Positions 9,718-28,964 of a stretch of 64,000 nucleotides of DNA are shown piece after piece (positions within the stretch are counted from its first letter, which is position 1; each line of letters opens with the position of its first letter). Under the pieces are notes generated by a model, which searched no databases, was not told where the DNA came from, and saw only the letters and a list, made by a program, of their open reading frames with translations. The position numbers and the translations under genes are program-made. The DNA comes from Paraeggerthella hongkongensis (GTDB lineage: Bacteria; Actinomycetota; Coriobacteriia; Coriobacteriales; Eggerthellaceae), in assembly GCF_003340345.1 (NCBI RefSeq), contig NZ_PPTQ01000009.1:62001-126000 (forward strand). Reading direction: 5' to 3'.

Positions 9718-9745
9718 CCTTTTGAAGGGTGGTTCATGATTCGGG
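9701..9745. repeat. 21-bp perfect inverted repeat at the istA break
   Basis: Arms 9701-9721 and 9725-9745 are perfectly complementary around the loop TTG. The left arm is istA coding sequence (PKPES), so the right arm is an inverted copy of it. This is the signature of a fold-back or template-switch rearrangement at the deletion end point. It would act as a strong hairpin but lacks a U-tract. Confidence 0.75.
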
Positions 9746-10155: not shown

Positions 10156-10605
10156 TTAATCATTGAGACTCATCGCGAACGTAATCGATTCCTCTGCAAA
10201 ACCCAGTTTTCGAAACACCTTCAAAGAAGCCTGATTGCCCGTACGCACTTGACCGCAAAGGCGCTTAACGCCGGGGATGTTTTCCTTCGCCTCGTCCACA
10301 ATCAGCTTGACAATCTGATTGGCGAATCCGTTTCCGCGCCATTCCGGAGCAACACAATATCCGATTTCAGCTTCCTCGTCCGAAACATACAGCTTTACAT
10401 GGCCGACATCGCTTCCGTCGTGCACCATGATGTACAAATATCGAGCTGGATCTTCCAGTGATTCTGAAAGCCACCTCAGGTGCTCTTCAAGCGTTATCTC
10501 TTCACTCGAAAATGAATTAGCACGGTCTAGGGGATCATTGACCCAACGCAATATCAGCTCCGCATCATCCATTGTCGCCGGACGCAAATAATCTCTTTCG
10601 CTCAT
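10156..10605 (-). CDS. pseH: PseH-like GNAT N-acetyltransferase
   Basis: This GNAT protein (149 aa) most likely acetylates N-4 of UDP-4-amino-4,6-dideoxy-N-acetyl-beta-L-altrosamine, the third step of pseudaminic acid synthesis. It begins MSERDYLRPATMDDAELILRW and has the acetyl-CoA loop region VAPEWRGNGFANQIVKLIVDEA (about 80-101) and the terminal NQASLKVFRKLGF. The start was set at ATG 10605 because GGAG lies seven bases upstream; the longer frame to 10638 has no ribosome site. It is the last gene of the pse operon, 29 bases after pseG. The acetyl-CoA fold is certain; the exact substrate rests on context. Confidence 0.85.
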   Translation of the reverse strand: MSERDYLRPATMDDAELILRWVNDPLDRANSFSSEEITLEEHLRWLSESLEDPARYLYIMVHDGSDVGHVKLYVSDEEAEIGYCVAPEWRGNGFANQIVKLIVDEAKENIPGVKRLCGQVRTGNQASLKVFRKLGFAEESITFAMSLND

Positions 10606-10634
10606 CTCGACTCTCCTGTCTTTTGTTCTAGCGC

Positions 10635-11711
10635 TCATGAAGCGCCTCGATGGCTCAAAAACAACCTCGCAAGCCTTTTTGATCCTTCTCCATCCACCAC
10701 CTTTGCGGACGCCTTCCTTAACGACCTCCTCAATGCGGTATCGCTGCAGAGATCCGACAGTGCGGAGACGAGCGGGGTCAGGCTTTTACGCTCGTCTCTA
10801 TAATCGCCGCCGAACAACATCGCACCCTCGCTGGAAAAGGAGTGCGCGGGTGCGTACTGGTCATCAGAAAGGCAGTAATTAACAGTTGGGATCCCGCATG
10901 CGCACAACTCATATAGCGTGGTTCCCGATGCGGAAACCGCAGCATCCATCGCACACATAAAAGTCGCCATGTCTTCGATTCCTTGGTGCACGACAACATT
11001 GTTGTCGTCTGACGCACGTTCCTCAAAGGCTTCAATATCTGGCGCAATGCTGCCAAGGACAAAGTGGAAGCAAACCTCATGTATCAGGTCCCCTTCTTCA
11101 TCAAGCGCGGCAAGGATACGAGCAGCCATATGCTCGGGGTCTGCACCACCGACAAGTATCGCGACATTTTCAACCGACGGCTTGATTTCTGGCAGTACTT
11201 GGATATCGAACTGCTTGCGCAGCGGGGCGTAACTCGAGCCAAGCAGGAGTTCCGTGGTGCGGTTTTCGTACAGCCCTCGATACATATCCCGATTAGCCGA
11301 AACGTTGTAGTTGACCAAGATATCAACAGGCAGCCTGCGCGAACCGAAATCGTCGAAATATACGACCTCGGTTCGGCTAGAGAGACTCTCCAGATATTCG
11401 TCATCAACGTAATAGCTGTCAACGACAAGCAGACGACACTCCATCGTTTCCACAAGATGCAGCAGTCTAGGGAGCTCTTCGCTCATTTCATGATAGGAGC
11501 TATTCAAGCTGACGTAGCTATAGCCTCGCTCCTCAACATATTCGGCGAACTGCTTGTCCGCGCATATGAAAACCGGTTCAGCACCTCTTGGCGCAAGCTC
11601 ATCCGCAACCGATAAGCATCGCATCAAGTGACCAAGTCCGACCGTTGCGTTTGCATCGACGCGGAAAAGTATGGGCAAGCGGGAGGCTGTCTCAGCTCTC
11701 AAATCTACCAA
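10635..11711 (-). CDS. pseG: PseG UDP-sugar hydrolase
   Basis: PseG removes UDP from UDP-2,4-diacetamido-2,4,6-trideoxy-beta-L-altropyranose, giving the free sugar for condensation by PseI. The N-terminus RVDANATVGLGHLMRCLSVA holds the family's G-x-GH-x2-R nucleotide-sugar signature. The C-terminal GT-B half has VSASGTTLYELCACGIPTV. Length 358 is normal. The first possible start (TTG 11711) overlaps the stop of the PIG-L gene; GAGAGG sits just before it, and TTG three codons further in is equally possible. Confidence 0.88.
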   Translation of the reverse strand: MVDLRAETASRLPILFRVDANATVGLGHLMRCLSVADELAPRGAEPVFICADKQFAEYVEERGYSYVSLNSSYHEMSEELPRLLHLVETMECRLLVVDSYYVDDEYLESLSSRTEVVYFDDFGSRRLPVDILVNYNVSANRDMYRGLYENRTTELLLGSSYAPLRKQFDIQVLPEIKPSVENVAILVGGADPEHMAARILAALDEEGDLIHEVCFHFVLGSIAPDIEAFEERASDDNNVVVHQGIEDMATFMCAMDAAVSASGTTLYELCACGIPTVNYCLSDDQYAPAHSFSSEGAMLFGGDYRDERKSLTPLVSALSDLCSDTALRRSLRKASAKVVDGEGSKRLARLFLSHRGAS

Positions 11712-12385
11712 ACCTCTCGAAGGAGCTGAAAGGCTTCCGCGTATTTCACGCCAACATTTGAGCCGCGATATCCAGCTAGGGCCAAGAGCTTATCCGGGCT
11801 CCGCGGATGAGGCTCCGAGGCGCTTTCGGACCGATATTTCGTCATGCCCTCAATCTTTGCCGCGATCGTCTTGCTGACATCAACGAAAACATTAGGCTTG
11901 AAAGGATCGGTGTAGTTGTAATTCCACTCAGAGGAAGAGGGGGTCTCGAACGCATAGATCCTTTTCACCGTATACTCACCCACTGGCCTGCACGCAGTCA
12001 GAACCGCGTCGCATGTGATTCGATGGTCGACATTAAGGTCCCCGTGATGGTGGGTGAAAATCGTATCCGGCTCATACTTCTCGATAAACTTGCTCACCGT
12101 CTTAATGACATCGAGTAGATCAACGCTATCCATCCTGTTGTCGGGGAATCCGCAGAAATCGATAGTGGAGTATCCGACGACCTCTGCCGCAGCGCTTGCA
12201 TCAGACCTTAGGCTCTTCAGCTCGCCCATGTCGCATTCATCCCTAGTTGCTGCTCTTGAGGTCAGTCCCTCTGCCAAAATTAGCGCGTGCGCCTCGACTC
12301 CTTCGTCAACAAAACGACGTATGGTTCCCGCCTCACCGAGCAGCTCGTCATCTGGATGAGCCGCAACAACCAATATCTTTCTCAT
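11705..12385 (-). CDS. PIG-L/LmbE-type N-deacetylase
   Basis: The zinc-dependent deacetylase signature AHPDDELLG is at residues 9-17, and the second metal-site histidines lie in IFTHHHGDLNVDHR (about 112-125). Members remove N-acetyl groups from amino sugars (GlcNAc-PI, bacillithiol and mycothiol precursors, antibiotics). It sits inside the pseudaminic acid operon, between the ATP-grasp gene (14 bases) and pseG (overlapping). The simplest inference is that it deacetylates pseudaminic acid or an intermediate to free an amine that the neighbouring ATP-grasp ligase then acylates. The standard pathway has no such step. Confidence 0.85.
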   Translation of the reverse strand: MRKILVVAAHPDDELLGEAGTIRRFVDEGVEAHALILAEGLTSRAATRDECDMGELKSLRSDASAAAEVVGYSTIDFCGFPDNRMDSVDLLDVIKTVSKFIEKYEPDTIFTHHHGDLNVDHRITCDAVLTACRPVGEYTVKRIYAFETPSSSEWNYNYTDPFKPNVFVDVSKTIAAKIEGMTKYRSESASEPHPRSPDKLLALAGYRGSNVGVKYAEAFQLLREVW

Positions 12386-12399
12386 TGCTTCCCTCTCGA

Positions 12400-13527
12400 T
12401 TAGCTCAGAAGATCTCGATGCTCTAGCATCGCTTTAAAAGGTTCAGGGTCGGATTTGCTCTGGTAATACAGGCAGCCAGCATTACGATAATCGTTAAGCC
12501 AATCCGCCAAGCTCGTATTGCCCTCAAGCACCCTCTTGCCGTAATCGATAGGCTCGACCATTGCCGTATAGTCGTCTGGGATAGGCTTGTAATACGAGGC
12601 GGGAATCGAACCCGTCAGCGTGGATTCAGCCCACAAGAGGGCGATTGGCATGCCGAGTGTGGTTGCAGCATAACTCCAAGTCGAATTTCTGAAATTAATT
12701 TCACTAAAATAGACGGCCCCGTCTTGGTCAACTAGGAACTCAGCAGAGAAGACCCCTTCAAACCCGATCTCCTTGAACATTGCCCGCATACCTGCATCTA
12801 AGTCGACCAGATCGAACCCATGCACCGTCATATATGGGCTGTAATAGCCCTTGATATTGTAATTGTACGTCGTGTACATGGGCATGAACAAATCCCGCCC
12901 CCTGTTGACCGAGTACCCATCAACACAAATCTCGTTACTCTTTTCGACGAACTTTTGGATCAGGACTTTCTTGCTTTGAATGCTTTCAAACGCCTTTCGA
13001 AGTTCTTGTTCGTTTTCGCAAATAAAAACGTCACTTTTCCATCCGCCATCGTTCGGCGAGATGGATTTGGTGATGATGGGATAATCGACGCCTGCGGGAA
13101 CCACTCCCCGATTGGTGACAACGGTATCGAGTACCTTCAGCCCATTTCTCTCGGCACATTCGAGTATCAGCTTCTTGTCCATAAACGCCGTCGTCCGGCC
13201 ATCTTCCCCAGCGTTAAATGCAATAAACCTGCCCTTAACCTCTGACCAGTTTTGATCGATAAGGCTTTGTATATCGTCATCCGTCGTCAAAACAAACGGC
13301 ATCGGGGATACATCACCATAAACGGACATGAGCAGTTCATACGCCTCTTCGCACGAGTCGACATAGTGCACCCTCTCTATATATTTGCTCAACGAAGCCA
13401 GCTCGCATTTATGTTTTATGGCTATATACACGGGCCTGATACCACACTCCCCGAGAGTGCGAATAACTCCTAAGGGGTTGTAGTGTTCCATGCCGATGAC
13501 AATAAACGTATGACTACTTACGCGCAT
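12400..13527 (-). CDS. ATP-grasp ligase of the pse operon
   Basis: This 375-residue protein has a Rossmann-like pre-ATP-grasp domain (FIVIGMEHYNPLGVIRTLGE), then an ATP-grasp fold with the lysine-rich region VDYPIITKSISPNDGGWKS and the Mg/ATP site FSAEFLVDQDG...YFSEINFRNS. Such enzymes join a carboxylate to an amine through an acyl-phosphate. The start is placed at ATG 13527, with GGAGG five bases upstream. It lies between pseI and the PIG-L deacetylase in one operon. I infer it adds an amino acid or another acyl group to a deacetylated pseudaminic acid; carboxylate and substrate are unknown. Confidence 0.8.
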   Translation of the reverse strand: MRVSSHTFIVIGMEHYNPLGVIRTLGECGIRPVYIAIKHKCELASLSKYIERVHYVDSCEEAYELLMSVYGDVSPMPFVLTTDDDIQSLIDQNWSEVKGRFIAFNAGEDGRTTAFMDKKLILECAERNGLKVLDTVVTNRGVVPAGVDYPIITKSISPNDGGWKSDVFICENEQELRKAFESIQSKKVLIQKFVEKSNEICVDGYSVNRGRDLFMPMYTTYNYNIKGYYSPYMTVHGFDLVDLDAGMRAMFKEIGFEGVFSAEFLVDQDGAVYFSEINFRNSTWSYAATTLGMPIALLWAESTLTGSIPASYYKPIPDDYTAMVEPIDYGKRVLEGNTSLADWLNDYRNAGCLYYQSKSDPEPFKAMLEHRDLLS

Positions 13528-13562
13528 TCCTTCCTCCATTCCATATTCAAAGGCCAGTAACG

Positions 13563-14615
13563 CTAGGCCAAGTCATCCCATTCAAGCAGGGCTCCAGCTT
13601 TTATGGCTTTGGCAGCAATCCTCCCGAGAATCGACTCATACGATGAAGGAGGAATCCCCGTTCCCGGACGCCTTAAGCCCAGATTGTTAACCGAGAACAC
13701 CTCGCCTTCTTCAACATCCTCGACGACGACGACACTCCTCCTCGCCAGCGAGCGCATTTCCCGTTCAGCAGGAGTCGGAACAAGGTCAGGGCTGCCAACC
13801 ATTTCGTAAGCTTCCTTGATGCTGGACGCCCATTCCCGAAGCTCATCAGGATCAGAGGCGAACCAATGGTCCGGTCCAGGGAAGTCGTGAGATAAAGTGA
13901 AGTGCTTTTCGAACACCTTAGCGCCGTATCCAACCGCAAGAACGGCCGCAGTGCTGCCTTGAGTATGGTCGCTGAAGCCGAGAACCACGTCAGGGAACCG
14001 TCTCCTCATCTCTTCGAGCTTGCTTATATTTGCGTTTTCCGGAGGTGTCGGATACTGCGAAGTGCACAAGAAAATGCAGAGATCGTCGTTGATCTCCGTC
14101 GAGGCATTAACAACTTGTTCGATCTCATCTCCATCAGCCATGCCGCAGGATATGAGCATAGGGAGTCCCTTCGAGGCATACTCCTTAATGAAAGGGATAT
14201 TGGTGAAGTCGTCCGAGCCGACCTTAACCGCAGCGGTCCCCAAACCGATAAGCATCTCCAAGTCATGCACCGTCACCGGCGTGGATAAGAACGTGATTCC
14301 GCAGTTATCGCAGCAATCCTTAATCTCGCCCCACTCTTCACGCGAGAACTCGGTTCGCTTGAACATGTCGAACATGGACTCGGTGACTTCCTTACCCTGA
14401 GACTGATACGTATAGGTAATCTTGTGGTCAAAGATGAAGTCCTCTGTCCTGAACGTCTGGAATTTGACTGCATCGACTCCAGATTCGGCTGCAACTTCGA
14501 TCATTTTCTTTGCAAGCGATATGTCGCCGTTGTGATTAATGCCAGCCTCGGCGATGACGAACGGCTCGCATCCGTCGCCAACAAGCGCGTTCCCGATATG
14601 AAAAGATTTATTCAT
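13563..14615 (-). CDS. pseI: PseI pseudaminic acid synthase (NeuB family)
   Basis: The enzyme condenses the 6-deoxy sugar with phosphoenolpyruvate to make the nine-carbon nonulosonic acid. The NeuB TIM barrel is clear: FVIAEAGINHNGDISLAKKMI, VDAVKFQTFRTED, GFSDHTQGSTAAVLAVGYGA and KVFEKHFTLSHDFPGPDHWF. The C-terminal antifreeze-like SAF domain follows (ARRSVVVVEDVEEGEVFS, about 290-350). Length 350 is typical. It starts at ATG 14615, overlapping the end of pseF. Presence of PseB/C/G rather than Leg enzymes points to pseudaminic, not sialic or legionaminic, acid. Confidence 0.92.
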   Translation of the reverse strand: MNKSFHIGNALVGDGCEPFVIAEAGINHNGDISLAKKMIEVAAESGVDAVKFQTFRTEDFIFDHKITYTYQSQGKEVTESMFDMFKRTEFSREEWGEIKDCCDNCGITFLSTPVTVHDLEMLIGLGTAAVKVGSDDFTNIPFIKEYASKGLPMLISCGMADGDEIEQVVNASTEINDDLCIFLCTSQYPTPPENANISKLEEMRRRFPDVVLGFSDHTQGSTAAVLAVGYGAKVFEKHFTLSHDFPGPDHWFASDPDELREWASSIKEAYEMVGSPDLVPTPAEREMRSLARRSVVVVEDVEEGEVFSVNNLGLRRPGTGIPPSSYESILGRIAAKAIKAGALLEWDDLA

Positions 14616-15306
14616 CCTTGCTCCTCATATAGCTGTATTTGAGCTCCGCCATCTCCCAATCTGATGTATTGTCGATATCTTGGGTCTCCATTTCGGAAAC
14701 CACATAGCCCAAGGTGCTATCGGTAATCAGCTGCGAGCACCTTTTAAACGAGGACACGCGCGACCAGTAAAACTGACCACAATCATGGTAGATGGCCTCA
14801 AGATCTTGCGACCTCATATTGAACGCCTCCACATCGACAGGCGACACCTTGTTGTCTCCCAGTACGAAACCTCGTTGTGGCGGGAAGGAAAATGCGGTCA
14901 CACTCAGGACGCCGTCGCATTGAGATGCATCGAGCATCGCGAAACTATCCTTTAATTTCTCCGGTGTTACGAATGGCGCCGTCGGGTATATACAGCAGAA
15001 ATAGTCAAATGCCCTGCCCTGCTTCTCGTAGGTTTTGAGCACCTCGCCTAACACGTCCTCGGTCCCAGCGAAGTCACTCGAGTTTTCCTCGCTTCGCAGG
15101 AAGGGGACCGAAGCCCCGAACGATCGCGCAACATCGGCTATCTCTTCACTGTCCGTAGAAACCATGACCTCATCAAACAATCCGCTTTCCAAGGCAGCTT
15201 TGATTGAGTATGAGATTATCGGTTTGCCGAAAAATTCCTTGATGTTTTTCTTTGGAATCCTCTTCGAGCCGCCTCTTGCAGTGATAATAGCGACTTTACG
15301 CATCAT
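14608..15306 (-). CDS. pseF: PseF CMP-pseudaminic acid synthetase
   Basis: This cytidylyltransferase activates the nonulosonic acid with CTP. The N-terminal signature IITARGGSKRIPKKNIKEF (residues 6-24) binds CTP, and YPTAPFVTPEKL, HDCGQFYW and the D-x-D-type NTSDWEMAE follow as in NeuA/PseF. The frame continues to 15366, but ATG 15306 has GAGAGACGA in front and overlaps pseC by 11 bases, as expected for a coupled operon. Product 232 aa. Confidence 0.92.
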   Translation of the reverse strand: MMRKVAIITARGGSKRIPKKNIKEFFGKPIISYSIKAALESGLFDEVMVSTDSEEIADVARSFGASVPFLRSEENSSDFAGTEDVLGEVLKTYEKQGRAFDYFCCIYPTAPFVTPEKLKDSFAMLDASQCDGVLSVTAFSFPPQRGFVLGDNKVSPVDVEAFNMRSQDLEAIYHDCGQFYWSRVSSFKRCSQLITDSTLGYVVSEMETQDIDNTSDWEMAELKYSYMRSKDE

Positions 15307-16504
15307 TTCGTCTCTCTTTGCACCAATCGATGACCTTAACGACCGCGGCGATGACATCATCGGCATCGCTCTCGTCCATGCAGCAATGAAGCGGCAGCGT
15401 CACAGTCTCCTCGTAATACGCGTTCGCGTTAGGACAGCAACCAGGGTCGTATCCGAGACGCTGGTAATACGGCAAGCGGTACACGGGGAGATAATGAACG
15501 TTTGCGCCCACGCCCTCAGCGCGAAGGGCATCGAAGATGAAACGCTTTGTAGCCCCCAATGCCTCGAGATCGAAGCGCAGACAGTATAGATGGCGCGTCG
15601 TATGCGCAGGATCGGAATCACGCTGGTATGACACTTCCGGAACTCCATCGAAGGCGGCATTGTAGTAAGCTACCAATCGCTGCCTCGTCTGGGTGAACTC
15701 TTCCAGCCTTTTCAGCTGCGAAACACCGAGGGCAGCCTGGATATCAGTGATCCTGTAGTTGTACCCGAGCTCCAGTTGCTCATAGTACCAGCCGCCCTCA
15801 TCAGTGTTCTTCATCAGCGATTTGTCCCTGGTGATACCATGCTTGGCGAAAAGAAGGGCCCGTTTCGCCAGCTCGGGGTCGTTCGTTGCAACGGCACCAC
15901 CCTCTCCGGTCGTGACCGTCTTTACAGGATGGAAGCTGAAGGTCGTGATATCCGCAACCGAGCCGACGGACGATCCGTCAACCTTGGAACCGAGCGAGTG
16001 CGCGGCATCCTCGATCAACAGCAACCCATGCTCGTCACAGATACGCCTCAATGCGGGCGCATCTACCGGCACACCGCCGAAATCTACAGCTACCACTGCT
16101 TTGGTATTCGGGGTAATCAGCGACTCAACGGAATCTGGAGAGATATTCCACGTTTCCGGATCGATATCCGCGAATACGGGCTTTGCCCCGCAGTACCTGA
16201 CGCAATTGGCGGAGGCGGCAAAAGTGATAGAAGAAACGATGACTTCATCGTCTTCCTTGATTCCAGCCGCCAAACATGCCACATGAAGTGCGGCAGTGCC
16301 GTTCGAAACGGCGGTTACATATTTCGCCCCAACTGTCCGCTTCAACAAGACCTCGAAAGCCTCGGTCGCCGGACCGCATGTCAGATAGTCACTTCTCAGT
16401 GCATCTTCTACGGCCTGGATATCATCTTCGGTTATCTGCTGGTGCCCGTATCCGAGAAGACTCTTCCTAACTGAAACACCGCCATTTATCGCTAACTCTT
16501 CCAT
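15296..16504 (-). CDS. pseC: PseC UDP-sugar aminotransferase
   Basis: This PLP enzyme of the DegT/DnrJ family aminates C-4 of the product of PseB. The Schiff-base lysine is in SFHPVKTVTTGEGGA; SNGTAALHVACLAAG and IEDAAHSLGS form the cofactor pocket. ATG 16504 gives 402 residues and follows AGGGGC, eight bases after the pseB stop; the upstream extension to 16570 lies inside pseB. Confidence 0.92.
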   Translation of the reverse strand: MEELAINGGVSVRKSLLGYGHQQITEDDIQAVEDALRSDYLTCGPATEAFEVLLKRTVGAKYVTAVSNGTAALHVACLAAGIKEDDEVIVSSITFAASANCVRYCGAKPVFADIDPETWNISPDSVESLITPNTKAVVAVDFGGVPVDAPALRRICDEHGLLLIEDAAHSLGSKVDGSSVGSVADITTFSFHPVKTVTTGEGGAVATNDPELAKRALLFAKHGITRDKSLMKNTDEGGWYYEQLELGYNYRITDIQAALGVSQLKRLEEFTQTRQRLVAYYNAAFDGVPEVSYQRDSDPAHTTRHLYCLRFDLEALGATKRFIFDALRAEGVGANVHYLPVYRLPYYQRLGYDPGCCPNANAYYEETVTLPLHCCMDESDADDVIAAVVKVIDWCKERRNDA

Positions 16505-16512
16505 GCTTGCCC

Positions 16513-17535
16513 CTAGTAGTGAATATCCATCTTGGAAACAAGTTCGCGGAGCTGCTCGACAGAGAGCCACTCGTCATTGACGGCAGAGTCGTAGATGAAG
16601 CCAGGCTCGACCTTTTTGCCGCCCTTCTTGTCGGCCGCTTCAAGGTCGTACCACTCCATGTACGGATAGATGATAAAGTTCTTCTCGTACTCGTAGGTGG
16701 TACCGCTGTCCGCAGCTGGAACCATGCATTCGGAGAGCTTCTCTCCTTCTCGAATTCCAACCTCAATCTGCTTCGCATCAGGTGCCATCGCAGTGGCCAA
16801 ATCGACAATTCGGAAGGAAGGAATCTTGGAGATGAGCGTTTCTCCACCCTCGGCCTCAGCAAGTGCCTTGACTACGAGCTGAATGCCCTCGTCAAGGGAA
16901 ATCCAGAAACGCGTCATCCTGAAATCAGTGATAGGCAACTCAGTTGCGCCGCCTTTGATAAGATTGTCGAAGAACGGAATAATCGAACCGCGGGAGCCTG
17001 CTACGTTTCCATAACGAACAACGGAGAAGGTTGTGCCGGACTGCCCACGATACGCATTCGCAGCTACGAATAGCTTGTCAGAGACAAGCTTCGTTCCACC
17101 ATAAAGGTTTACGGGATTGACGGCCTTGTCTGTAGAGAGAGCGACCACCTTCTGGACATCAGAATCAAGAGCAGCATTGATAAGATTCATCGCACCGTCA
17201 ATGTTTGTCTTGATCGCTTCCATGGGATTGTATTCGCATGCGGGAACCTGCTTGAGAGCAGCGGCATGGACAACATAATCGACGTCGATCAGAGCACGGC
17301 GAAGACGCGCCTCATCACGCATGTCGCCAATAAAGTAGCGAAGCTTAGAGTCGTAATCTTTTCCAGCCTCTTTGCCTAGCTCGATGAACTTGTTCCGCAT
17401 CACGAACTGCTTGTACTCATCACGGGAATAAATGATGATTTTCTTAGGGTTATAATTTTCGAGAACATACTGCGTAAAAGCATTTCCGAAAGAACCAGTT
17501 CCGCCTGTAACCAATATCGTTCTGTTATTTAACAT
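16513..17535 (-). CDS. pseB: PseB UDP-GlcNAc 4,6-dehydratase (inverting)
   Basis: First committed step: UDP-GlcNAc is dehydrated and epimerised at C-5. The NAD-binding loop VTGGTGSFGNAFTQ is at residues 8-21, and the YxxxK motif is YGGTKLVSDKL. HAAALKQVPACEYNP and DFRMTRFWI are typical of PseB-type short-chain dehydrogenases. The start ATG 17535 is preceded by GGAAGG; 340 aa. It opens the pse block, 20 bases after wzx, in the same transcript. Confidence 0.93.
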   Translation of the reverse strand: MLNNRTILVTGGTGSFGNAFTQYVLENYNPKKIIIYSRDEYKQFVMRNKFIELGKEAGKDYDSKLRYFIGDMRDEARLRRALIDVDYVVHAAALKQVPACEYNPMEAIKTNIDGAMNLINAALDSDVQKVVALSTDKAVNPVNLYGGTKLVSDKLFVAANAYRGQSGTTFSVVRYGNVAGSRGSIIPFFDNLIKGGATELPITDFRMTRFWISLDEGIQLVVKALAEAEGGETLISKIPSFRIVDLATAMAPDAKQIEVGIREGEKLSECMVPAADSGTTYEYEKNFIIYPYMEWYDLEAADKKGGKKVEPGFIYDSAVNDEWLSVEQLRELVSKMDIHY

Positions 17536-17555: not shown

Positions 17556-18998
17556 TCAATCAGTTGAGTGACCAAACTTAGAAATAATCTTTCTGTACAA
17601 AGCAGATGCCCTATCTCGATAGACCATCAAACCAAGTACCAAAAACAAAAAGCACATAAACGTACGAATCAAGAAATCTTGATAGACGAAACAGTTTGCT
17701 ATGCATAACCCAACAATCAACGCTGAACATGCAGCCGTTCGCATCCAATTGCGCATAGTCGGGAGAAGCTTGTAGCCAACTGCAGATCGAGCCACCCCAA
17801 CAAACAAAGCAGAACACGCAACACCCACACCGGTGGCAAACGCCCCCGCAAACTGTGCGAGAAGAATTGTGATAACTGCGCATATGCCAATTCCCACAGT
17901 CGTGATGACGGTTCCGTAAATTGGCTTATTTCTAATCATGATCCCGTAATTTGTAGTTTCGCAAATCAACGACTGAATCGGTGCAAGCATTAGAAGCATA
18001 AAAAAGCTCTGGCCGATTCTGTATTCGCCACCCACCAGCAAAAACAGGATATCCTGAAACAGGATTATTGCCGTCACTATCACCAGGGCCAGCATCATAA
18101 TGTAGTCATGTACGTCTTTAATCAATTCTTTCTCGTCTTCGTAATGCTCATACATAAACGGAGCCCAGTACGTTCCAAAAGCCTGGGGGATCATGGAAAA
18201 AGACGTCGCGAGCGTTGTCGCTATTGCCAAAACGCCGACTTCGCCAAAATACCCAAAATTACCTAACACAAGTTTTCCAATTGAGGAATTCAACGTCACT
18301 GCAAGAGAATCCAACATGCAGGGAAATCCGAAGACGGCTAGAGCACCCATACGTTTAGCATTCAGCTCGTTAAAAGGAACAAAACAGTCTTTCCTCTGAC
18401 GCAGAACAAAGAAAATCGTGACTAAAAGCATCCCTCCCGTCATAACCAAAGCTGCAATCTTATAACTTGTTGAATACCATGCAGCAGCAACAAACAACGC
18501 TCTAGTTATGATGTTCTGCAGAATGCTCTGAATGTTAAAGCGCCATCTATTACCGCTCATTCGCGCCATGGTGTTCAAGAGCCGGAATACAATTAGGCAC
18601 CCTATATAAAGGAAAAGCATTAACAGGGTCAAAGAGTCCTGCTCTCCAAAAATTGCCAAGGAGGCCGGTATTGGGAACAAAGCGAGAATGATAAATCCCA
18701 AGATGACATCCATAGACAAACCAACCACAAATGCGGCTGTAAAAAGAATACGAGGACTGTACCCTGGTTCTTTTTCAAAAAAGAACCTCATAAAAGCATG
18801 GTCGAACCCTGCAAGAAACAAGCTCATGCCAATCAAGCCCAAGGAATAAAACAGATTGATTTTTCCATATTCATCTGCAGGGTAAATATATGAAACAACT
18901 GGGATAACGAATAGAGTTATTAGTGCCGTAAAAATTGGAACGGCCGAATAAGTCAGCGATCCTTTGAGAACATCTTTAATCCCGAGCAAACGAATCAC
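17556..18998 (-). CDS. wzx: Wzx-type polysaccharide flippase
   Basis: An integral membrane protein with about 12-14 hydrophobic helices, of the MOP/polysaccharide transport family (LKGSLTYSAVPIFTALITLF at the start, YGKINLFYSLGLIGMSLF). It should flip undecaprenyl-linked repeat units across the membrane. The frame is open to 19043, but GTG 18998 (VIRLLGIKD) gives the usual family start and overlaps the wzy end by 23 bases. The DNA from here to about 23.2 kb is visibly richer in A/T than the flanks, as expected for an imported serotype cassette. Confidence 0.85.
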   Translation of the reverse strand: MIRLLGIKDVLKGSLTYSAVPIFTALITLFVIPVVSYIYPADEYGKINLFYSLGLIGMSLFLAGFDHAFMRFFFEKEPGYSPRILFTAAFVVGLSMDVILGFIILALFPIPASLAIFGEQDSLTLLMLFLYIGCLIVFRLLNTMARMSGNRWRFNIQSILQNIITRALFVAAAWYSTSYKIAALVMTGGMLLVTIFFVLRQRKDCFVPFNELNAKRMGALAVFGFPCMLDSLAVTLNSSIGKLVLGNFGYFGEVGVLAIATTLATSFSMIPQAFGTYWAPFMYEHYEDEKELIKDVHDYIMMLALVIVTAIILFQDILFLLVGGEYRIGQSFFMLLMLAPIQSLICETTNYGIMIRNKPIYGTVITTVGIGICAVITILLAQFAGAFATGVGVACSALFVGVARSAVGYKLLPTMRNWMRTAACSALIVGLCIANCFVYQDFLIRTFMCFLFLVLGLMVYRDRASALYRKIISKFGHSTD

Positions 18999-20325
18999 GC
19001 TCCGTAAAATTTCTAGCACGTGCGATCTCTTCGCCCTTGACAAAGCCTCCCTTTGAGAACAAGTGCAAAAAGGCGTAGACGACTACCACTTCGAAAAGAA
19101 CCCAATCGAGACGCCCAACATTAAAGAAATAGATAGGAGCAAAAATACTCATCGGAATCAAACACGGACTAATAACGCGAAGGAAATAGTAAGACTGAGA
19201 GTATCTCTCGATCTTGCTCATCACCAAACCAAACAGGTATGAAGCAACCGGAGCGCCCCAGAGTCCAAACTCAATAATCAAGTTCCATGCAAAGCTGGTA
19301 TATCTCGCAATTCCCTCAGTAAGCGTGCCGTCTACAAATGTTGGATCGGCGATCAAAGGAATGCTGGCACTATTCAAAAGCTTGGACAGAGGTCGCAGCG
19401 TGTTGGTAAAGGGATACAGTTGGTCAGGCATATAAACATCCCAAAATCCTGCAAATACAAATGGAGCTTCACCTAAATAATCACAGAAATCATAAAATGA
19501 TTCGACAGCACCGTTTGACGAGTAATACAGATCAAGCCAAAAAGGCTTAAGCCACTGATCACCTGGCATAATTTCAAATTTCGTTAACGGCGTGTTGTAA
19601 ATGAGTTTCGTTTCCATCAACTGAACGAAAACAACAAGCAACACAATCCCTGCAACCATAACTATCATTTTGGTCAAGAGAGATGAGACTTTTCCTGCAT
19701 CTACAACTTTTCGAACAGCAGAACTCCTCCTGTTCTCAATAACAAAAAACAAAACGAAAGCTACTGCAATAGAAAAACGAGACCCTTGCAGCAGCGCAAA
19801 AAGACCGACGGTCCAAAACGCACAAATCACTAATCTCTCGAGCCTTTTAGGCCATCCAGAGTTATCCGCGCGCATAAACAAATACGACACGGTACCAAGC
19901 TGCATTGAACTCATTAGTATTTGGTCCAGCATCGTTCTGCCAGTTTCAGCGTATTCATAATACGCACCGCCAAACAATGTATAAGATGCGCCATAGTATC
20001 TCATAAGGCTCACGGTCTCAATCACGAAGGAAGCAATCGAGATAATACTTAACGTGATTAAAAATCTACGTGCACCGATTCCTAGGTAGAAGCTGCGATA
20101 AATCAACGGCTTCTTTTGAAGTACCAGACCCCCAGATCGCATGCCCGCATACAGCAAAACAAAACATGCGATTAGATACAAAATTGCATTGCCGTCATAT
20201 ACACGCCACTGAAAAGGACCGAAGCAAGATATAAACCAACAAGCCAGCGTTGAGTACAAAAAAATTTTTGATATCGGAAAGCGCTTGCCAAATGAAAACT
20301 CACGCTCCTGGTCAACCTTATTCAC
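18976..20325 (-). CDS. wzy: Wzy-type oligosaccharide repeat-unit polymerase
   Basis: A 449-residue membrane protein with about 11-12 predicted helices and a large loop between late helices (about 230-370), the layout of O-antigen/capsule polymerases. Sequence identity in this family is always low; the call rests on topology, position between wzx and glycosyltransferases, and the low-GC cassette. The GTG start overlaps the end of the preceding gene by 8 bases. Confidence 0.7.
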   Translation of the reverse strand: MNKVDQEREFSFGKRFPISKIFLYSTLACWFISCFGPFQWRVYDGNAILYLIACFVLLYAGMRSGGLVLQKKPLIYRSFYLGIGARRFLITLSIISIASFVIETVSLMRYYGASYTLFGGAYYEYAETGRTMLDQILMSSMQLGTVSYLFMRADNSGWPKRLERLVICAFWTVGLFALLQGSRFSIAVAFVLFFVIENRRSSAVRKVVDAGKVSSLLTKMIVMVAGIVLLVVFVQLMETKLIYNTPLTKFEIMPGDQWLKPFWLDLYYSSNGAVESFYDFCDYLGEAPFVFAGFWDVYMPDQLYPFTNTLRPLSKLLNSASIPLIADPTFVDGTLTEGIARYTSFAWNLIIEFGLWGAPVASYLFGLVMSKIERYSQSYYFLRVISPCLIPMSIFAPIYFFNVGRLDWVLFEVVVVYAFLHLFSKGGFVKGEEIARARNFTERDSFARD

Positions 20326-21625
20326 GGGCAGTCCTCACGAGATAGGACCTTAGAGCATTTGCAACATGCTCCGGGGTGCAATCGTTCATATTCTTGTCGG
20401 CAATAAAGTCAGCTTTAAACAATTGTTTTAGTAAATCGCGAACAAATATCTCATTTGGATAGCTCCGTTCAATCGGAAGATTCAGCGAATCTTCCGAAAG
20501 AGAGCTGACGACATGGATGTTCGGATGCAAATCCGAATAATAGTTCCGCTCAAGAGAGATGACCCTCTTGCCTCGTATCAAAGCCTCGACTCCAACGGTT
20601 CCATTATCGACCAGAACAGTCTCAACTCTTTCAAGAATGGCATTGCTGTTATCTAAAGGGTGAACTAATTGAACATTCGATAATTCAGACAACTTACGAT
20701 AGAAATCCAGACGTCGTTTTCCATACATAGCCGGATGCTCTTTGACAACGAAATTAATATTCGCAGGAGAACTATTCAGTATATTCAAAATGTATTTTTC
20801 ATAGCCAAATTGCGATATATCACGACAAAAGTAATCCGTAGTTTGCTCGGGAACATAGTGCATAGGCAAGTAAACTGAGCTTGAATCTATTCGTACTTCA
20901 TTAATGCTGCAGAAGTAACCATCATAGTTCTTGCAATACAAATCAAGAAAACGAGAATCCCCAACTAGTTTCGTACCATACTGCTGATTGTCCCAATCAC
21001 GCTTTACAGCGCGCAAAAGAGGATTGTACACAGATTCGATCAAACGCCTGCGCAAATAGTATTTACGTACATCCCTAGGCCCTAACTTCACATGGCCCAC
21101 CTCAGAATCAGGTAAATAATATTTATCGAGTAGTTGCTTTGTTATCATCGAAACTTCTTCATTGGGAACCTCATCGCGAACAACAACCCCCTCGCCATAA
21201 AGCGTGAATTTCGCGTATCCCCCCAAAAAGGATCCGACAAATGAAATCGTCCGGACACCATATTTTTTTGCAAGACGAGCGCAAATGTCTTGCACATGAC
21301 AATCGATAGGATGCAGCAACACATAGTCGAAGTTACCAACCTCAAACAGCTCTCGCATCCAACCCCATGTTGCTTTAACTATCCTTGTGGCATCCTGAAA
21401 ACTCAACAAGCGAAGATATCTATCGCGGCATACTATGTCATCCAGCAAGCTGCCAGGCAAATCATCGAGACGTTCTGCCCCCATTGTGTAACTACCTTGC
21501 CACAGATCACCACAATCTTTAAATTCTGAGAAAGAGACGATTTCGAGGTCGTCGCCAAACGTAAGCCGGGCGAGATCAAGATAAAACTTTTTAGAGTATG
21601 GCCTGACGTGAATTAATGCCTTCAT
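20318..21625 (-). CDS. Capsule-synthesis-type glycosyltransferase, candidate pseudaminyl transferase
   Basis: A 435-residue soluble protein. Its second half resembles capsule polysaccharide synthesis proteins of the KpsC/KpsS type: INFVVKEHPAMYGKRRLDFYRKL, then a GT-B donor-site-like VLVDNGTVGVEALIRGKRVISLE. KpsC/S-family enzymes transfer Kdo, a CMP-activated 3-deoxy-ulosonic acid, so this is the best candidate in the cassette for transferring CMP-pseudaminic acid. That substrate is inference. It follows the acetyltransferase gene and is coupled to wzy. Confidence 0.6.
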   Translation of the reverse strand: MKALIHVRPYSKKFYLDLARLTFGDDLEIVSFSEFKDCGDLWQGSYTMGAERLDDLPGSLLDDIVCRDRYLRLLSFQDATRIVKATWGWMRELFEVGNFDYVLLHPIDCHVQDICARLAKKYGVRTISFVGSFLGGYAKFTLYGEGVVVRDEVPNEEVSMITKQLLDKYYLPDSEVGHVKLGPRDVRKYYLRRRLIESVYNPLLRAVKRDWDNQQYGTKLVGDSRFLDLYCKNYDGYFCSINEVRIDSSSVYLPMHYVPEQTTDYFCRDISQFGYEKYILNILNSSPANINFVVKEHPAMYGKRRLDFYRKLSELSNVQLVHPLDNSNAILERVETVLVDNGTVGVEALIRGKRVISLERNYYSDLHPNIHVVSSLSEDSLNLPIERSYPNEIFVRDLLKQLFKADFIADKNMNDCTPEHVANALRSYLVRTARE

Positions 21626-21628
21626 GAG

Positions 21629-22129
21629 TCACCTACATTTTTTATATTTAATCGGTTCGACGGTCATTTGCGGCTGAAAACGAACAAGGGAGTTGTCAGG
21701 AATCGAATCGGAAATAACGCAATTTGCTCCAATAACACAGTTCGAACCTATTTTCGCTCCACGCAAGACCACGACATTTGAACCCAGCCAGCAGTTATTT
21801 CCTATTTCAATTCCTAGGGCAGTCGACCCTTGTTCGCGAATGGGAACACCAGCTCGATTAAAGACATGGTTGCTGTCGTAAATCTTCACTCCTTCAGCAA
21901 ACAAGCAGTCGTCCCCTATAGAAACTGAGTCGAGTACATCTATCGAGCAGTTATTATTAAAAAAACAGCGATGCCCGATGGTGCAATGAGCATCATCGGC
22001 GATCATCAAACCCCAGCCCTTTCGAACACTAAGACCTCCACCTACGTTCAAACGCCCCAAATACAGAACCCTATACCAAGCAAGCACGATTATCGTTCTA
22101 AAATGAAACAGCAATTTGCGAATAAACAC
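21629..22129 (-). CDS. Left-handed beta-helix acetyltransferase
   Basis: Hexapeptide repeats run through the 166-residue product (CTIGHRCFFNNNCSIDVLD, VSIGDDCLFAEGVKIYD, IEIGNNCWLGSNVVVLRG, AKIGSNCVIGANCVI), typical of WcaF/CysE-like O-acetyltransferases that modify polysaccharide sugars using acetyl-CoA. The GTG start overlaps the last base of the preceding glycosyltransferase stop. Confidence 0.85.
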   Translation of the reverse strand: MFIRKLLFHFRTIIVLAWYRVLYLGRLNVGGGLSVRKGWGLMIADDAHCTIGHRCFFNNNCSIDVLDSVSIGDDCLFAEGVKIYDSNHVFNRAGVPIREQGSTALGIEIGNNCWLGSNVVVLRGAKIGSNCVIGANCVISDSIPDNSLVRFQPQMTVEPIKYKKCR

Positions 22130-23241
22130 TAAAGAACTCCGGTCTCTTTGTTTACTGCCCTCAAATACTCACGCTCGAGTCGTTTTGCGCATAAAGTAAT
22201 ATCGTACGGATCAAACCCAGGGGCGTGCTTAGCTGCACATCTCGCTTTACTCGACAAATGTCGAATATCATCAACCCAGGCATCCACATCATTCGTCGAA
22301 TGGAATATGCAACTATCGCTAACCGCAACGTCACGAGGAACAGCATCAGATAACACACAAGGAAGCCCGGATTTCTGAGCCTCTAGTGCAACCATCCCGA
22401 ATCCTTCGTACAGACTCGGCAAAAGAAACACATCAAAGGCAGAGTAGATTTTCGCTATATCACGTCTTTGACCAGCGAAGATGCATCTATCCCCAACATG
22501 AAGCGCATCCGCCATGTTTTCAATTTTTTTCCGCATAGGACCATCACCAACAAAACAGACGTACATATTTATGTTATCTGCTGTGGCTTTCTGTAGAAAA
22601 TCCAGAAAAAAAGACTGGTTTTTCTGCTTAACGAATCTTCCAACAGAACCGACTAAAAGAACACCCTCCTCAACGCCAAAATCTTCCCTAAGGCTTTTTC
22701 TCGACTCAGGATCAAAACTAAATGATCGGAGATCAATTCCGTTGTTGACCACTTCAAACTGACGATTTCCGAACAGCCAACGCCCTGCATGCTCGCTACA
22801 AGCAAACAAGTGCGTCGCATACTTCGACGAAAATGGTTTAAGTAAATTCTTGATAATATTTCGACCAAATTCACCCTTTCCGGAAGTTGAATGAGAATGA
22901 GCTATTCGAACCGGAACTTCTACTTTTTTCGCCATGCGCAATGGGAACACAGAAAGTGCATTTAAATGTGAGTGGACCACATCATATTGCCCTTTTCGCA
23001 GAACCTGATACATTTCCCTGCTATAAGCTCCTAATCGTTGATAAGGAGGAACCTTGATAATGGAACCACCAAACATTTCAATCTCATCCCTTGGCACGTA
23101 AGTTGAATCTTCATCAATCAGAAAATCAAACTTAAACAGATTTTGATCCATGTTTTGGCAATAATTCAGGACAACAGCCTCGACGCCCCCACCGACCATC
23201 TTTCCCATAATATGCGCAACGCGAATACGAGTTTTTTTCAT
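22129..23241 (-). CDS. Glycosyltransferase family 4, copy 1
   Basis: A GT-B enzyme that adds a sugar to the lipid-linked intermediate: N-terminal IMGKMVGGGVEAVVLNYCQN, donor-site FDVFLLPSLYEGFGMVALEAQ. It is a paralogue of the gene at 24038-25147 (both start with RVAH-I/V-GKMVGGGVEAVV-NY and share PPYQ-LG-Y and VPVRIAHSH). This copy is visibly more A/T-rich and belongs to the imported cassette. Confidence 0.88.
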   Translation of the reverse strand: MKKTRIRVAHIMGKMVGGGVEAVVLNYCQNMDQNLFKFDFLIDEDSTYVPRDEIEMFGGSIIKVPPYQRLGAYSREMYQVLRKGQYDVVHSHLNALSVFPLRMAKKVEVPVRIAHSHSTSGKGEFGRNIIKNLLKPFSSKYATHLFACSEHAGRWLFGNRQFEVVNNGIDLRSFSFDPESRKSLREDFGVEEGVLLVGSVGRFVKQKNQSFFLDFLQKATADNINMYVCFVGDGPMRKKIENMADALHVGDRCIFAGQRRDIAKIYSAFDVFLLPSLYEGFGMVALEAQKSGLPCVLSDAVPRDVAVSDSCIFHSTNDVDAWVDDIRHLSSKARCAAKHAPGFDPYDITLCAKRLEREYLRAVNKETGVL

Positions 23242-23250
23242 TCAAACAAC

Positions 23251-23900
23251 CTAAACAGAATTAAACAGATGTGATACGGATCGGTTTCCCTGGGCAGTCA
23301 AAACACAGCCAACGGTTTGAACAGTTAGTTTAAAATCAGGCAAAACGCTACATTCCCTGATGTACAACAAATCAAGATCAACCCACTCGTCGAACGTAAT
23401 AGAATCGCGATTGCGGAGAGCCTGCCAATAACAGGTGGCTCCAGGTTTCACTAGAAGACGCTGCCTCTGATAATCACTATAGGCAAGCACCTCACGAAGC
23501 AGAACATGCCTAGGCCCTACAACAGAGACATGTCCCAAAAGGGCGTTTATAAACTGCGGCAGTTCATCTAGGGAGAGCTTGCGAAGCCACTTGCCAACGC
23601 GAATAATCCTGGGATCTTCGGCCATCTTGAACACAGGGCCAGTCTTTTCGTTAAGCTCCTTGAGCTCGGAAAGCTTCTCTTCGGCGTCCACGCACATGCT
23701 CCTGAACTTCCACATCATGAAGCGCTCGCCGTTCTTTCCGACGCGCTCCTGCTTGAATAACACGGGGCCGGAGGGATCGTCGATTTTGATCGCGACGGCG
23801 ATGGCAGCGTAGAGCCAGCAGAGCGGGACGAGGACCGTCGCACTGAGCACGATATCGAAAGCGCGCTTGACGAAGCGGTAGGCTCAGCGCTCCTCGTCGA
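23251..23900 (-). pseudogene. Phosphoglycosyltransferase duplicate with nonsense codon
   Basis: The sequence matches the intact enzyme at 25154 from DEERWAYRFAKRAFDIV onward (IKIDDPSGPV, QERVGKNGERFMMWKFRSM, KLSLDELPQFIN, LLVKPG-TCYWQ). In the copy the Trp codon of DEERWAY is TGA (about 23882-23884), and upstream the DNA switches to the start of a GT2 gene. A GTG at 23850 leaves an open frame of 199 codons, but it lacks the KRAFDI entry to the membrane helix that single-domain PGTs need. I judge it inactive. Part of the copy is close to 90% identical to the intact gene at DNA level by eye, making a recombination target. Confidence 0.75.
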
Positions 23901-24041
23901 TTCGTCGCCCAACCCGTCGTCACGGATTGCGAGCTCCCAGTCCTCAAAACTCTGGAAAACAATCGACTTCACGCTGTCGATAAGGTGTTTTCGTTTGGGC
24001 CTATAAACGCCCATCGCTACGCTGACGCGGGGGGTGCTCAT
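23885..24041 (-). pseudogene. 5' fragment of a family-2 glycosyltransferase
   Basis: The frame starts ATG 24041, overlapping the stop of the preceding gene as ATGA, and reads MSTPRVSVAMGVYRPKRKHL...SIVFQSFEDWELAIRDDGLGDE. This is the nucleotide-binding start of GT2 enzymes (VSV-MGVY ... SI-xQSFxDWEL-I-DDG). After about 50 residues it runs out of frame into the phosphoglycosyltransferase copy. The chimaera shows that a GT2 gene was replaced by recombination. Confidence 0.7.
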
Positions 24042-25147
24042 ATCCGTACTCCCTCATATAGCCGCAAGTAGAAGGCCTCCAGCTTTTCCGACGCATTGTC
24101 GATGTCGAAGGGTTCGAATGCCTTGCCCGCCGCGTCCTTTCGGTCTCCGCCCTCGAACTGCGCCCAGATCTCGCGAGCCCATGCATCGGTGCCGCTCTCG
24201 AGTGGCAGCAGCCTGCAGCTATCCGTAAGTACGACCTCGGGCGACACCCTGTTCGACACGACGCTCGGCACGCCAGCAACCTGCGCTTCAAGCAAAGCCA
24301 TGCCAAAGCCCTCGTACAGCGACGGCAGGACGAACACGTCCATGCCCTGGTACAGGTGGCTCACGTCGTCCACTTGCCCGAGGAAGCGCACGCTCTCGGC
24401 AAGGCCCATGCTGCATGCCATCTTCTCGAGCGGCTCTCGGAGCGATCCGCACCCCGCGATGATGAGCATCGAGTCCGGATGAGCTGCGTGCATACGGGCG
24501 AACGCGTTGATGAGAAAAGCCTGGTTCTTCGTGCTCTCCATGCGCCCCAAGTTGCCCACTACGCAACAACCGTCGTCCACGCCCCAGGCAGCGCGCACCT
24601 CGGCCCTCGAGACGGTGTCGAAGCGAAACCTGCCCAGCTCGACGGCGTTTGGGATCACGGTGAAGTCCGTGTTTTTGCCGAAGAGCCACTCGCCGGCGTA
24701 CCTGCTGCACGCCACGCGGTCGGTCGGGTAGGCGTTGGTGAAGGGGCGAAGAATCAGCTTTATAAGGTTACGTTTGATCTCGCCCTTGCCCATGGTCGCA
24801 TGGCTGTGGGCGATGCGCACCGGAACGCTGGCCCTCTTAGCGACGCGCAGCGGGAACACCGAGAGGGTGTTTATATGACTGTGCGCGATGGAATAGCTGT
24901 TCTGAGCAAGCAGCCCGCCCAGCGCCTTCTGGTACTCACCCAAGTGCTGGTAGGGCGGAACCTCATAGAGACGTCCTCCAAGGCCATCAATCTCTTCAGC
25001 TGACACGACGGTCGAGTCCGAGTCGATGATGAAGTCGAACTGCACCCGCTCGCGGTTTATGTGGCGGTAGTAGTTCATAACGACAGCTTCCACGCCGCCG
25101 CCGACCATCTTCCCTATGACGTGCGCAACCCTTACCGGCTTCTCCAT
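24038..25147 (-). CDS. Glycosyltransferase family 4, copy 2
   Basis: A 369-residue GT-B transferase (VIGKMVGGGVEAVVMNYYRH; MDVFVLPSLYEGFGMALLEAQ) that probably adds the second sugar after the phosphoglycosyltransferase encoded just upstream (6-base gap). Its GC-rich codon use matches the resident genome, unlike its paralogue at 22129-23241. GGGGAG lies ten bases before the ATG. Confidence 0.9.
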   Translation of the reverse strand: MEKPVRVAHVIGKMVGGGVEAVVMNYYRHINRERVQFDFIIDSDSTVVSAEEIDGLGGRLYEVPPYQHLGEYQKALGGLLAQNSYSIAHSHINTLSVFPLRVAKRASVPVRIAHSHATMGKGEIKRNLIKLILRPFTNAYPTDRVACSRYAGEWLFGKNTDFTVIPNAVELGRFRFDTVSRAEVRAAWGVDDGCCVVGNLGRMESTKNQAFLINAFARMHAAHPDSMLIIAGCGSLREPLEKMACSMGLAESVRFLGQVDDVSHLYQGMDVFVLPSLYEGFGMALLEAQVAGVPSVVSNRVSPEVVLTDSCRLLPLESGTDAWAREIWAQFEGGDRKDAAGKAFEPFDIDNASEKLEAFYLRLYEGVRI

Positions 25148-25153
25148 GGATGA

Positions 25154-26023: not shown

Positions 26024-26504
26024 CTTTGACGGTTTTCTTTCTGCCCATAATCTCGATGTCCAAGTAGGCCAACCGCTTGTGACGGTCGATCTTCTTGATC
26101 AAACCCGTCTGATGCATAAGCGGGCCGTTGAGGATCACGATCCGGTCGCCTTCTATCACGCCACTCGAAAACTCGATCACGCGCTGATCGGGTTTCGTGA
26201 ATGCGTTGATGAAGGCAACTTCCTGATCATTCAGGGGAATGAACACATCGTTGTTGGAAAGAAGTCGCGTGAACTTGGGGATATCCCGCAAAGCGACTTT
26301 CAGCAAATTCGGTTTATCGGTTACTGCAAATATATACCCAGGGAGCAGCACCTCTTGCGATGTGCGCCACTCCCCTTTGATGCGTTTCTTCACCTCGTAT
26401 CGAGGTATGAACGATTCTTCGATAAGGCTCGGCTCGACGAGCTTTTGCATCAAGTCAAGCACGTGCTTTTCCTGGCCACCGATGGTTTGCACAACGTACC
26501 ACAT
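25992..26504 (-). CDS. loaP: NusG-family antiterminator (LoaP-like)
   Basis: A 170-residue NusG paralogue: NGN domain starting MWYVVQTIGGQEKHVLDLM, and a C-terminal KOW domain (SSGVIEGDRIVILNGPLMHQTGLIKKIDRHKRLAYLDIEI). Specialised NusG proteins such as LoaP and RfaH ride on RNA polymerase to prevent termination in long polysaccharide operons. ATG 26504 was chosen because GGGAGG lies eight bases upstream. It sits inside the capsule operon, directly before ~16 kb of downstream biosynthetic genes. Confidence 0.88.
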   Translation of the reverse strand: MWYVVQTIGGQEKHVLDLMQKLVEPSLIEESFIPRYEVKKRIKGEWRTSQEVLLPGYIFAVTDKPNLLKVALRDIPKFTRLLSNNDVFIPLNDQEVAFINAFTKPDQRVIEFSSGVIEGDRIVILNGPLMHQTGLIKKIDRHKRLAYLDIEIMGRKKTVKVGLEIVQKRS

Positions 26505-28259: not shown

Positions 28260-28272
28260 GACTCTCTCCTCC

Positions 28273-28932: not shown

Positions 28933-28964
28933 GCGATCATCTTTCTATTATCAGCGGCGTCCCG

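Follow-up and report, generated by a model that had tools for sequence, protein, structure and literature searches.

Why should an operon for pseudaminic acid (Pse) carry both a deacetylase and an amide-forming ligase? This question is raised by a 64,000-nucleotide stretch of the Paraeggerthella hongkongensis genome (contig NZ_PPTQ01000009.1, positions 62,001 to 126,000; hereafter the window), in which a PIG-L de-N-acetylase gene and an ATP-grasp ligase gene lie inside a pse operon. Nonulosonic acids on bacterial surfaces are involved in interactions with hosts and phages and carry highly varied N-acyl groups; to our knowledge, only a small number of enzymes are known to determine the acyl group at C5 of these sugars. 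Our analysis suggests, with about even confidence, that the operon makes CMP-pseudaminic acid, a capsule sugar, bearing an acyl group other than acetyl at C5 (Pse5R7Ac), and that PIG-L and the ATP-grasp enzyme would carry out the exchange before the synthase acts. If so, the pair would be a gene signature predicting C5-modified pseudaminic acids, the accompanying synthase would be a type to examine for new substrates, and the logic of PIG-L plus an acylating enzyme in thiol biosynthesis would extend to capsule sugars.

A PIG-L and ATP-grasp pair inside a pse operon

Eight pse-operon genes lie on the minus strand at 10156-17535 of the window, all where the original prediction had placed them. 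Gene content and family membership were read using NCBIfam equivalog cut-offs and Pfam cut-offs as criteria. From position 17535 down, the genes are:

16513..17535, minus strand: pseB, UDP-N-acetylglucosamine (UDP-GlcNAc) 4,6-dehydratase (inverting); TIGR03589, 508.5 bits, passing the cut-off of 407.8
15296..16504, minus strand: pseC, aminotransferase; TIGR03588, 467.6 bits, passing the cut-off of 423.5
14608..15306, minus strand: pseF, CMP-pseudaminic acid synthetase; TIGR03584, 295.4 bits, passing the cut-off of 205.7
13563..14615, minus strand: divergent nonulosonic acid synthase of the NeuB/PseI family (NeuB and SAF domains), neither canonical PseI nor NeuB; NeuB_NnaB and PseI both under cut-off
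12400..13539, minus strand: ATP-grasp carboxylate-amine ligase; a 14-sequence profile matches PurK, carbamoyl-phosphate synthase and biotin carboxylase
11705..12385, minus strand: PIG-L de-N-acetylase; PF02585, 90.0 bits, passing the cut-off of 28.2
10635..11711, minus strand: pseG, UDP-sugar hydrolase; TIGR03590, 194.4 bits, passing the cut-off of 153.6
10156..10638, minus strand: pseH-like GNAT acetyltransferase; TIGR03585, 49.8 bits, under the cut-off of 93.1

Successive genes are separated by 8, -11, -8, 23, 14, -7 and -4 bases, with the pseC start set at the ATG 8 bases beyond the pseB stop. Since neighbours overlap by 4-11 bases or sit 8-23 bases apart, the eight genes very likely form one transcript. 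The coordinates and the packed minus-strand spacing bear out the predicted eight-gene operon with PIG-L and ATP-grasp genes between the synthase and pseG. The accompanying claim that all six Pse steps are present holds by gene count and for PseB, PseC, PseF and PseG, which exceed their cut-offs, but less well for the other two steps: the synthase is divergent, missing PseI and scoring higher as NeuB, and the PseH assignment is weak, TIGR03585 being the protein's best NCBIfam match although far below its cut-off.

The protein encoded at 12400..13539 is placed in the ATP-grasp carboxylate-amine ligase superfamily by the profile of its relatives and by its residues, not by a Pfam cut-off. It narrowly misses two ATP-grasp models (PF02222, 25.7 of 27 bits; PF08443, 20.8 of 21), and its relative in a Roseburia record (locus L062) passes a third (PF02786, 25.1 of 19.8). 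The profile of 14 sequences matches solved members (3orq, 4.3e-13; 1bxr, 1.1e-10), residues K122, K158, E267, E280, N282 and R284 are unchanged in 14/14 sequences, and a Foldseek search with a poor model ranks ATP-grasp enzymes first, at template-modelling (TM) scores of just 0.3-0.4. In PIG-L, the residues of the HPDDE and DH motifs (H10, D12, D13, E14, D120 and H121) are unchanged in all 19 sequences compared; the catalytic roles of the conserved motif residues of both proteins are known from their families. Solved relatives of PIG-L include several N-acetyl-amino-sugar deacetylases (diacetylchitobiose deacetylase, N-acetylglucosaminyl malate deacetylase and MshB), and the window protein misses the models of the bacillithiol deacetylase BshB (TIGR04001 and TIGR04000; 72.8 of 182.5 and 47.5 of 195.3 bits).

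Recurrence of the pair and other acylating partners of PIG-L

The window ATP-grasp is rare: relatives were found in 2/296 genomes of the window's class, namely the source genome and one with a 26% match in a different gene setting, and in 1/396 genomes of a phylum sample, again the source genome itself. A contig scan with the protein identified six relatives that share 47-57% identity with it, in records of Roseburia, Hungatella, Lachnospiraceae, Erysipelotrichaceae, Porphyromonadaceae and Oscillospiraceae, each with a PIG-L gene a few genes away (6/6); the Hungatella genome holds two additional copies. When 378 genomes from the family of the Roseburia record were searched with a profile, five matched, four of them new. 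The single protein gave no matches in phages, plasmids and viral contigs, nor did a two-row alignment when searched against viral contigs.

We counted as close those ATP-grasp loci with 570 bits or more against the A2 profile (n=11), plus the window, which is itself among the profile's sequences. A PIG-L gene lies within ~3 kb of the ATP-grasp gene in all 12 (the window and 11 others). It lies within 6 kb in 12 of the 13 ATP-grasp loci examined, the exception, L085, being the most distant relative (392.6 bits, against 571 or more in the 11 others that are close). As no second PIG-L turned up anywhere in the source genome, the closeness of the pair is hardly due to chance.

The 12 pair loci occur in two settings, three Pse-type operons (the window, L062 and L084, the last from a genome of the same family as the Roseburia record) and nine polysaccharide loci. 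The Pse-type operons have in common the order synthase, ATP-grasp, PIG-L, pseG. In L062 and L084 a hexapeptide transferase gene follows the synthase. The slot between ATP-grasp and PIG-L is empty in the window, holds a radical SAM gene in L062, and holds genes for a BCCT transporter and an acyltransferase in L084. L062 has, in addition, a MaoC-like gene ahead of ATP-grasp, a Pse-associated methylase gene and a second, canonical NeuB synthase gene on the opposite strand. The L084 transporter (10317-11819) scores 622 bits with a glycine betaine model (cut-off 650); that it might point to betaine as the acyl donor is only a guess.

In the nine polysaccharide loci the order is PIG-L, phosphoglycosyltransferase, ATP-grasp. 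Three of them contain a PseB-related dehydratase (112-127 bits), L063 has a PseF-like match (66.7 bits) ~9 kb off, at the end of the examined stretch, and in L066 and L067 one gene of unrecognised kind stands ahead of ATP-grasp. The PIG-Ls of the Pse setting form a clade of their own (99/99), separate from those of the nine sugar-transferase loci (100/100). Among the ATP-grasps, those of the Pse setting cluster at 88/99. We do not claim two separate PIG-L recruitments, since the tree that splits the two PIG-L groups is unrooted. One Hungatella genome carries PIG-L, sugar transferase and ATP-grasp in three copies on separate contigs (L063, L080 and L081). NusG-like genes, perhaps encoding dedicated antiterminators, precede the pair in L063-L065 and L080-L082 (by Pfam in L063 and L065, and as one sequence cluster across the six loci).

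To place the pair among Pse loci in general, we surveyed 397 genomes of the Roseburia record's family, where 82 of 105 PseG matches were examined. PIG-L is present in 10 of the 82, together with the window-type ATP-grasp in two, a formyltransferase in four, an ATP-grasp of another family in three (L143 and L152, ATP-grasp_4 by Pfam; L163, by profile) and no recognised partner in one (L181, with a hexapeptide transferase close by). The formyltransferases, all relatives of the annotated L055 enzyme, each lie within 10 bases of PIG-L, and in the 82 loci a formyltransferase never occurs without it (4/82). One of these three kinds of partner accompanies PIG-L in 9/10 loci and is present in 17/72 loci without PIG-L (Fisher p = 8e-5), or 7/8 versus 17/72 when L062 and L084 are removed (p = 7e-4); as the partner set was chosen after some loci had been viewed, these p-values are descriptive. 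A detectable synthase is missing in 21 of the 82 loci, 10 of them stretches under 14 kb. In the window's class, 25/246 genomes have a PseG match (29 matches), and the HPDDE motif is found in 0/13 PseG loci examined there, the window's own locus excluded. G059, which was located via PIG-L, combines the HPDDE motif with a formyltransferase.

PIG-L with a formyltransferase in Pse or Neu loci would follow the same logic with a different acyl group and supports an acyl exchange in the window. The predicted de-N-acetylation and re-acylation is thus plausible and in part supported: it is strengthened by recurrence of the pair in two further Pse-type operons and nine polysaccharide loci and by PIG-L beside other acylating enzymes, while the chemistry is what we infer. 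No result singles out the aminoacyl form that the prediction gave as an example.

Two further arrangements were seen outside these sets. In the archaeon Halorussus (L087:6113-11021), neuB, PIG-L and neuC are adjoined by two formyltransferase genes, an arrangement that may lead to an N-formyl nonulosonic acid. Priestia and Cytobacillus plasmids (L056:8989-12116 and L058:8989-12154) carry PIG-L, a family 4 glycosyltransferase (GT4) and an ATP-grasp annotated as 'carbamoyl-phosphate synthase', with spore coat genes nearby on the Priestia plasmid, a layout reminiscent of bacillithiol synthesis.

The synthase, the proposed pathway and its rivals

Where in the pathway would the exchange take place? 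The window synthase misses the cut-offs of both NeuB_NnaB (337.7 of 399.7 bits) and PseI (253.5 of 340.3), with the NeuB score the higher, and together the synthases of the window, L062 and L084 score 338-369 and 254-272 bits, respectively, below both cut-offs. A canonical PseI, scoring 427-509 bits, is encoded by all three plain Pse operons that were scanned in the window's class (L034, L036 and L039) and by two operons that combine PIG-L with a formyltransferase (L055 and L059). In a 24-row tree, the synthases of the window, L062, L084 and Mariluticola form one clade (100/100) on a stem of length 0.97, distinct from the 14 rows of canonical PseI and the 6 of NeuB type; within it the window's sister is Mariluticola (93/83), rather than L062 or L084. 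Residues specific to the clade include D135, D136, H243 and W262. This third type occurs in 2/82 of the surveyed PseG loci, the same two that have the window-type ATP-grasp. Since a synthase that sees an ordinary hexose need not differ, the separate clade is the best sign that the substrate may be changed before condensation, and is a hint only.

As for the position, the nitrogen at C5 of Pse derives from the 2-amino group of UDP-GlcNAc and already carries an acetyl group, whereas the C7 nitrogen is supplied by PseC and acetylated by PseH. A change at C5 therefore requires prior removal of a group and one at C7 just another transferase. A deacetylase and an amide ligase beside an apparent PseH are what a C5 exchange would require. 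In the pathway that we infer, PseB, PseC and the PseH-like enzyme would build the UDP-2,4-diacetamido-altrose precursor, from which PseG would release the hexose. PIG-L would strip the 2-N-acetyl group derived from UDP-GlcNAc (on the future C5 nitrogen), leaving the 4-N-acetyl group added by PseH in place, and the ATP-grasp enzyme would activate a carboxylic acid with ATP and attach this acid to the amine thus exposed. Condensation of the altered hexose with phosphoenolpyruvate by the divergent synthase would follow, after which PseF would activate the re-acylated product and the capsule machinery would use it.

A wider scheme is conceivable, though we hold it to be doubtful. PIG-L and this ATP-grasp family might be a portable acyl-swapping cassette for UDP-GlcNAc-derived amino sugars, serving Pse operons and, with the other PIG-L lineage, sugar-transferase-led polysaccharide loci. 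In Pse operons it would be accompanied by a third class of nonulosonic acid synthase that takes the re-acylated hexose, and the strain-specific slot genes (none, radical SAM, or betaine-type transporter with acyltransferase) would supply or alter the acid, betainyl-pseudaminic acid being one possible product.

Several observations weigh against an exchange at C5 ahead of the synthase. In the Mariluticola operon the same synthase type stands with PIG-L and what is probably a formyltransferase (24.8 bits with Formyl_trans_N, cut-off 26.1), and none of the genes of its locus matched ATP-grasp, so the synthase type is not strictly tied to the ligase. Synthases of intermediate kind (266-276 bits with our NeuB profile) stand in three PIG-L loci with another ATP-grasp and in one with a formyltransferase; synthase type therefore varies beyond what the model asks. 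Neither L062 nor L084 has a PseH-like match, just the hexapeptide transferase, and the L084 cytidylyltransferase is not PseF-like, so the L084 product may not be plain Pse. The solved relatives of PIG-L also include 4-oxalmesaconate hydratase, and the structure models of both proteins are poor (mean predicted local distance difference test scores of 51 and 61) and insufficient for substrate placement. Nine of the 12 pairs lie outside Pse operons, and the pair itself is therefore not Pse-specific. Lastly, ATP-grasp_4 (PF13535) relatives occur in 20/82 PseG loci, 17 of them without PIG-L (the two weakest of the 20 score <30 bits).

Two strict rules are ruled out by these data: that the third synthase type implies the ATP-grasp, by Mariluticola, where it is paired with a probable formyltransferase, and that an ATP-grasp in a Pse locus implies PIG-L, by the 17/82 loci. 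A deacylase like Cj1295 of Campylobacter jejuni (see below) as a replacement for PIG-L in those 17 was absent from the 25 commonest among 62 Pfam families in a scan of 59/64 unassigned open reading frames of 330-520 residues; the most frequent matches were glycosyltransferases, including GT52 in nine.

The same product, Pse5R7Ac, would arise if PIG-L and the ATP-grasp enzyme acted after the synthase, on finished Pse or CMP-Pse. PIG-L and formyltransferase operons with an ordinary PseI (canonical by NCBIfam in L055 and L059; scoring best with our PseI profile in L150 and L195) indicate that a C5 exchange needs no special synthase, and the C. jejuni proposal places cleavage on the basal Pse sugar (PMC3068675; here and below, statements on cited papers cover parts of their text). 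Against this order of events, which we consider improbable, all three operons with this ATP-grasp have a synthase that is neither PseI nor NeuB and that would be superfluous if its substrate were ordinary. The lack of synthase, pseC and pseG matches in the nine polysaccharide pair loci, where PIG-L, a sugar transferase and ATP-grasp stand together, would also suit a pair that serves another capsule sugar, such as a 2-acetamido sugar at its lipid-linked end; two phosphoglycosyltransferases are indeed encoded in the window's capsule cluster. The position in a Pse operon would then be a chance of cluster assembly. We find this quite unlikely, given the identical internal order across three Pse-type operons, the separation of their PIG-L clade from the nine others, and the placement of the pair genes within a packed pse operon.

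ATP-grasp enzymes could also activate the sugar's own carboxylate. The ligase might thus form an amide at C1, or acylate C7, with PIG-L trimming a different acetyl group, and the 17 PseG loci with another ATP-grasp but without PIG-L would fit such a role. Yet a PIG-L acting at C7 would undo the work of the PseH-like enzyme, and each of the 12 close ligase loci has a PIG-L, which supplies an amine; of the alternatives we give this one the least credence. An exchange at C5 before condensation remains the reading that we prefer.

The capsule cluster and known systems

The pse operon is the end of a capsule cluster that otherwise lies upstream and is ordinary in appearance:

17556..19043, minus strand: Wzx-like flippase; PF01943, 26.3 bits, just below the cut-off of 28.2
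18976..20325, minus strand: Wzy-like polymerase, a weak match; TIGR04370, 21.5 bits, under the cut-off of 40
20318..21625, minus strand: Capsule_synth-family protein, a candidate transferase of the modified sugar; PF05159, 32.0 bits, cut-off 20
21629..30197, minus strand: remaining cluster, by Pfam a hexapeptide transferase, two GT4, two phosphoglycosyltransferases, CpsB, a CpsD-like ATPase, Wzz and LytR-CpsA-Psr

Because no flagellin match was found in the source genome, the capsule is the likely destination of the operon's product. Just past the downstream end of the operon, at 8448-9725, lies a transposase-like open reading frame with a Mu-transpos_C_2 domain (34.4 bits).

How does this proposal compare with known systems? 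Routes to bacillithiol and mycothiol use a GT4, a PIG-L and an amide-forming enzyme, PIG-L unmasking an amine for later acylation. The likeness is the acylation of an amine freed by PIG-L; the differences are that the window PIG-L reaches 72.8 bits with the BshB1 model (cut-off 182.5) and that the window offers no thiol pathway context. Within the openly licensed literature we found no report of PIG-L together with pseudaminic acid, or of these two with ATP-grasp, and LmbE is not mentioned in the papers checked for the term. To that extent the original prediction that no such pathway had been described stands, but a C5 exchange had been proposed with Cj1295 (PMC3068675).

Acyl groups other than acetyl at C5 are documented in several nonulosonic acids. 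In Clostridium botulinum, Leg5GluNMe7Ac (quoted in PMC5207245) has an amino-acid-derived N5 amide, the type of product that an ATP-grasp ligase could make, and differs in belonging to the legionaminic rather than the pseudaminic series. Halorubrum sp. PV6 makes 5-N-formyl-legionaminic acid, with a formyltransferase suggested (PMC6137143); it likewise has a non-acetyl acyl group at C5, but this is formyl rather than a ligated acid, and the part of the paper covered names no deacetylase, LmbE or PIG-L. An ATP-grasp 'amino acyl ligase' of C. acetobutylicum is tabulated two genes from a NeuB gene (CA_C2187-2189), and the DUF4910 protein beside it is suggested to transfer an acyl group or a peptide to an amino sugar (PMC4000134); unlike the window, the tabulated neighbourhood has a peptidase-like protein and no PIG-L. 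An ATP-grasp protein was also noted earlier in a flagellin glycan locus (PMC5207246), and in the part of the Shewanella sfm paper covered ATP-grasp appears solely in the reference list; the pair is not described in the covered parts of either.

The closest parallel is C. jejuni 11168, whose flagellin carries 5-(2,3-di-O-methylglyceroyl) Pse, that is Pse5(2,3-di-O-methylglyceroyl)7Ac, and for which it is proposed that Cj1295 cleaves the C5 acetamido group, with substitution following (PMC3068675). The likeness is a Pse whose C5 acetyl group is exchanged for another acyl group. Cj1295, however, is described as having an aminopeptidase-like domain rather than PIG-L, with ATP-grasp unmentioned in the part of that paper covered, and its sugar sits on flagellin, whereas the window operon lies within a capsule cluster in a genome without a flagellin match. 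Pfam listed no Cj1295/DUF4910-like protein for the eight pse genes or for two genes next to them. C. jejuni is thus an earlier described case of Pse re-acylated at C5, and the PIG-L and ATP-grasp pair would represent unrelated enzymes for that kind of change.

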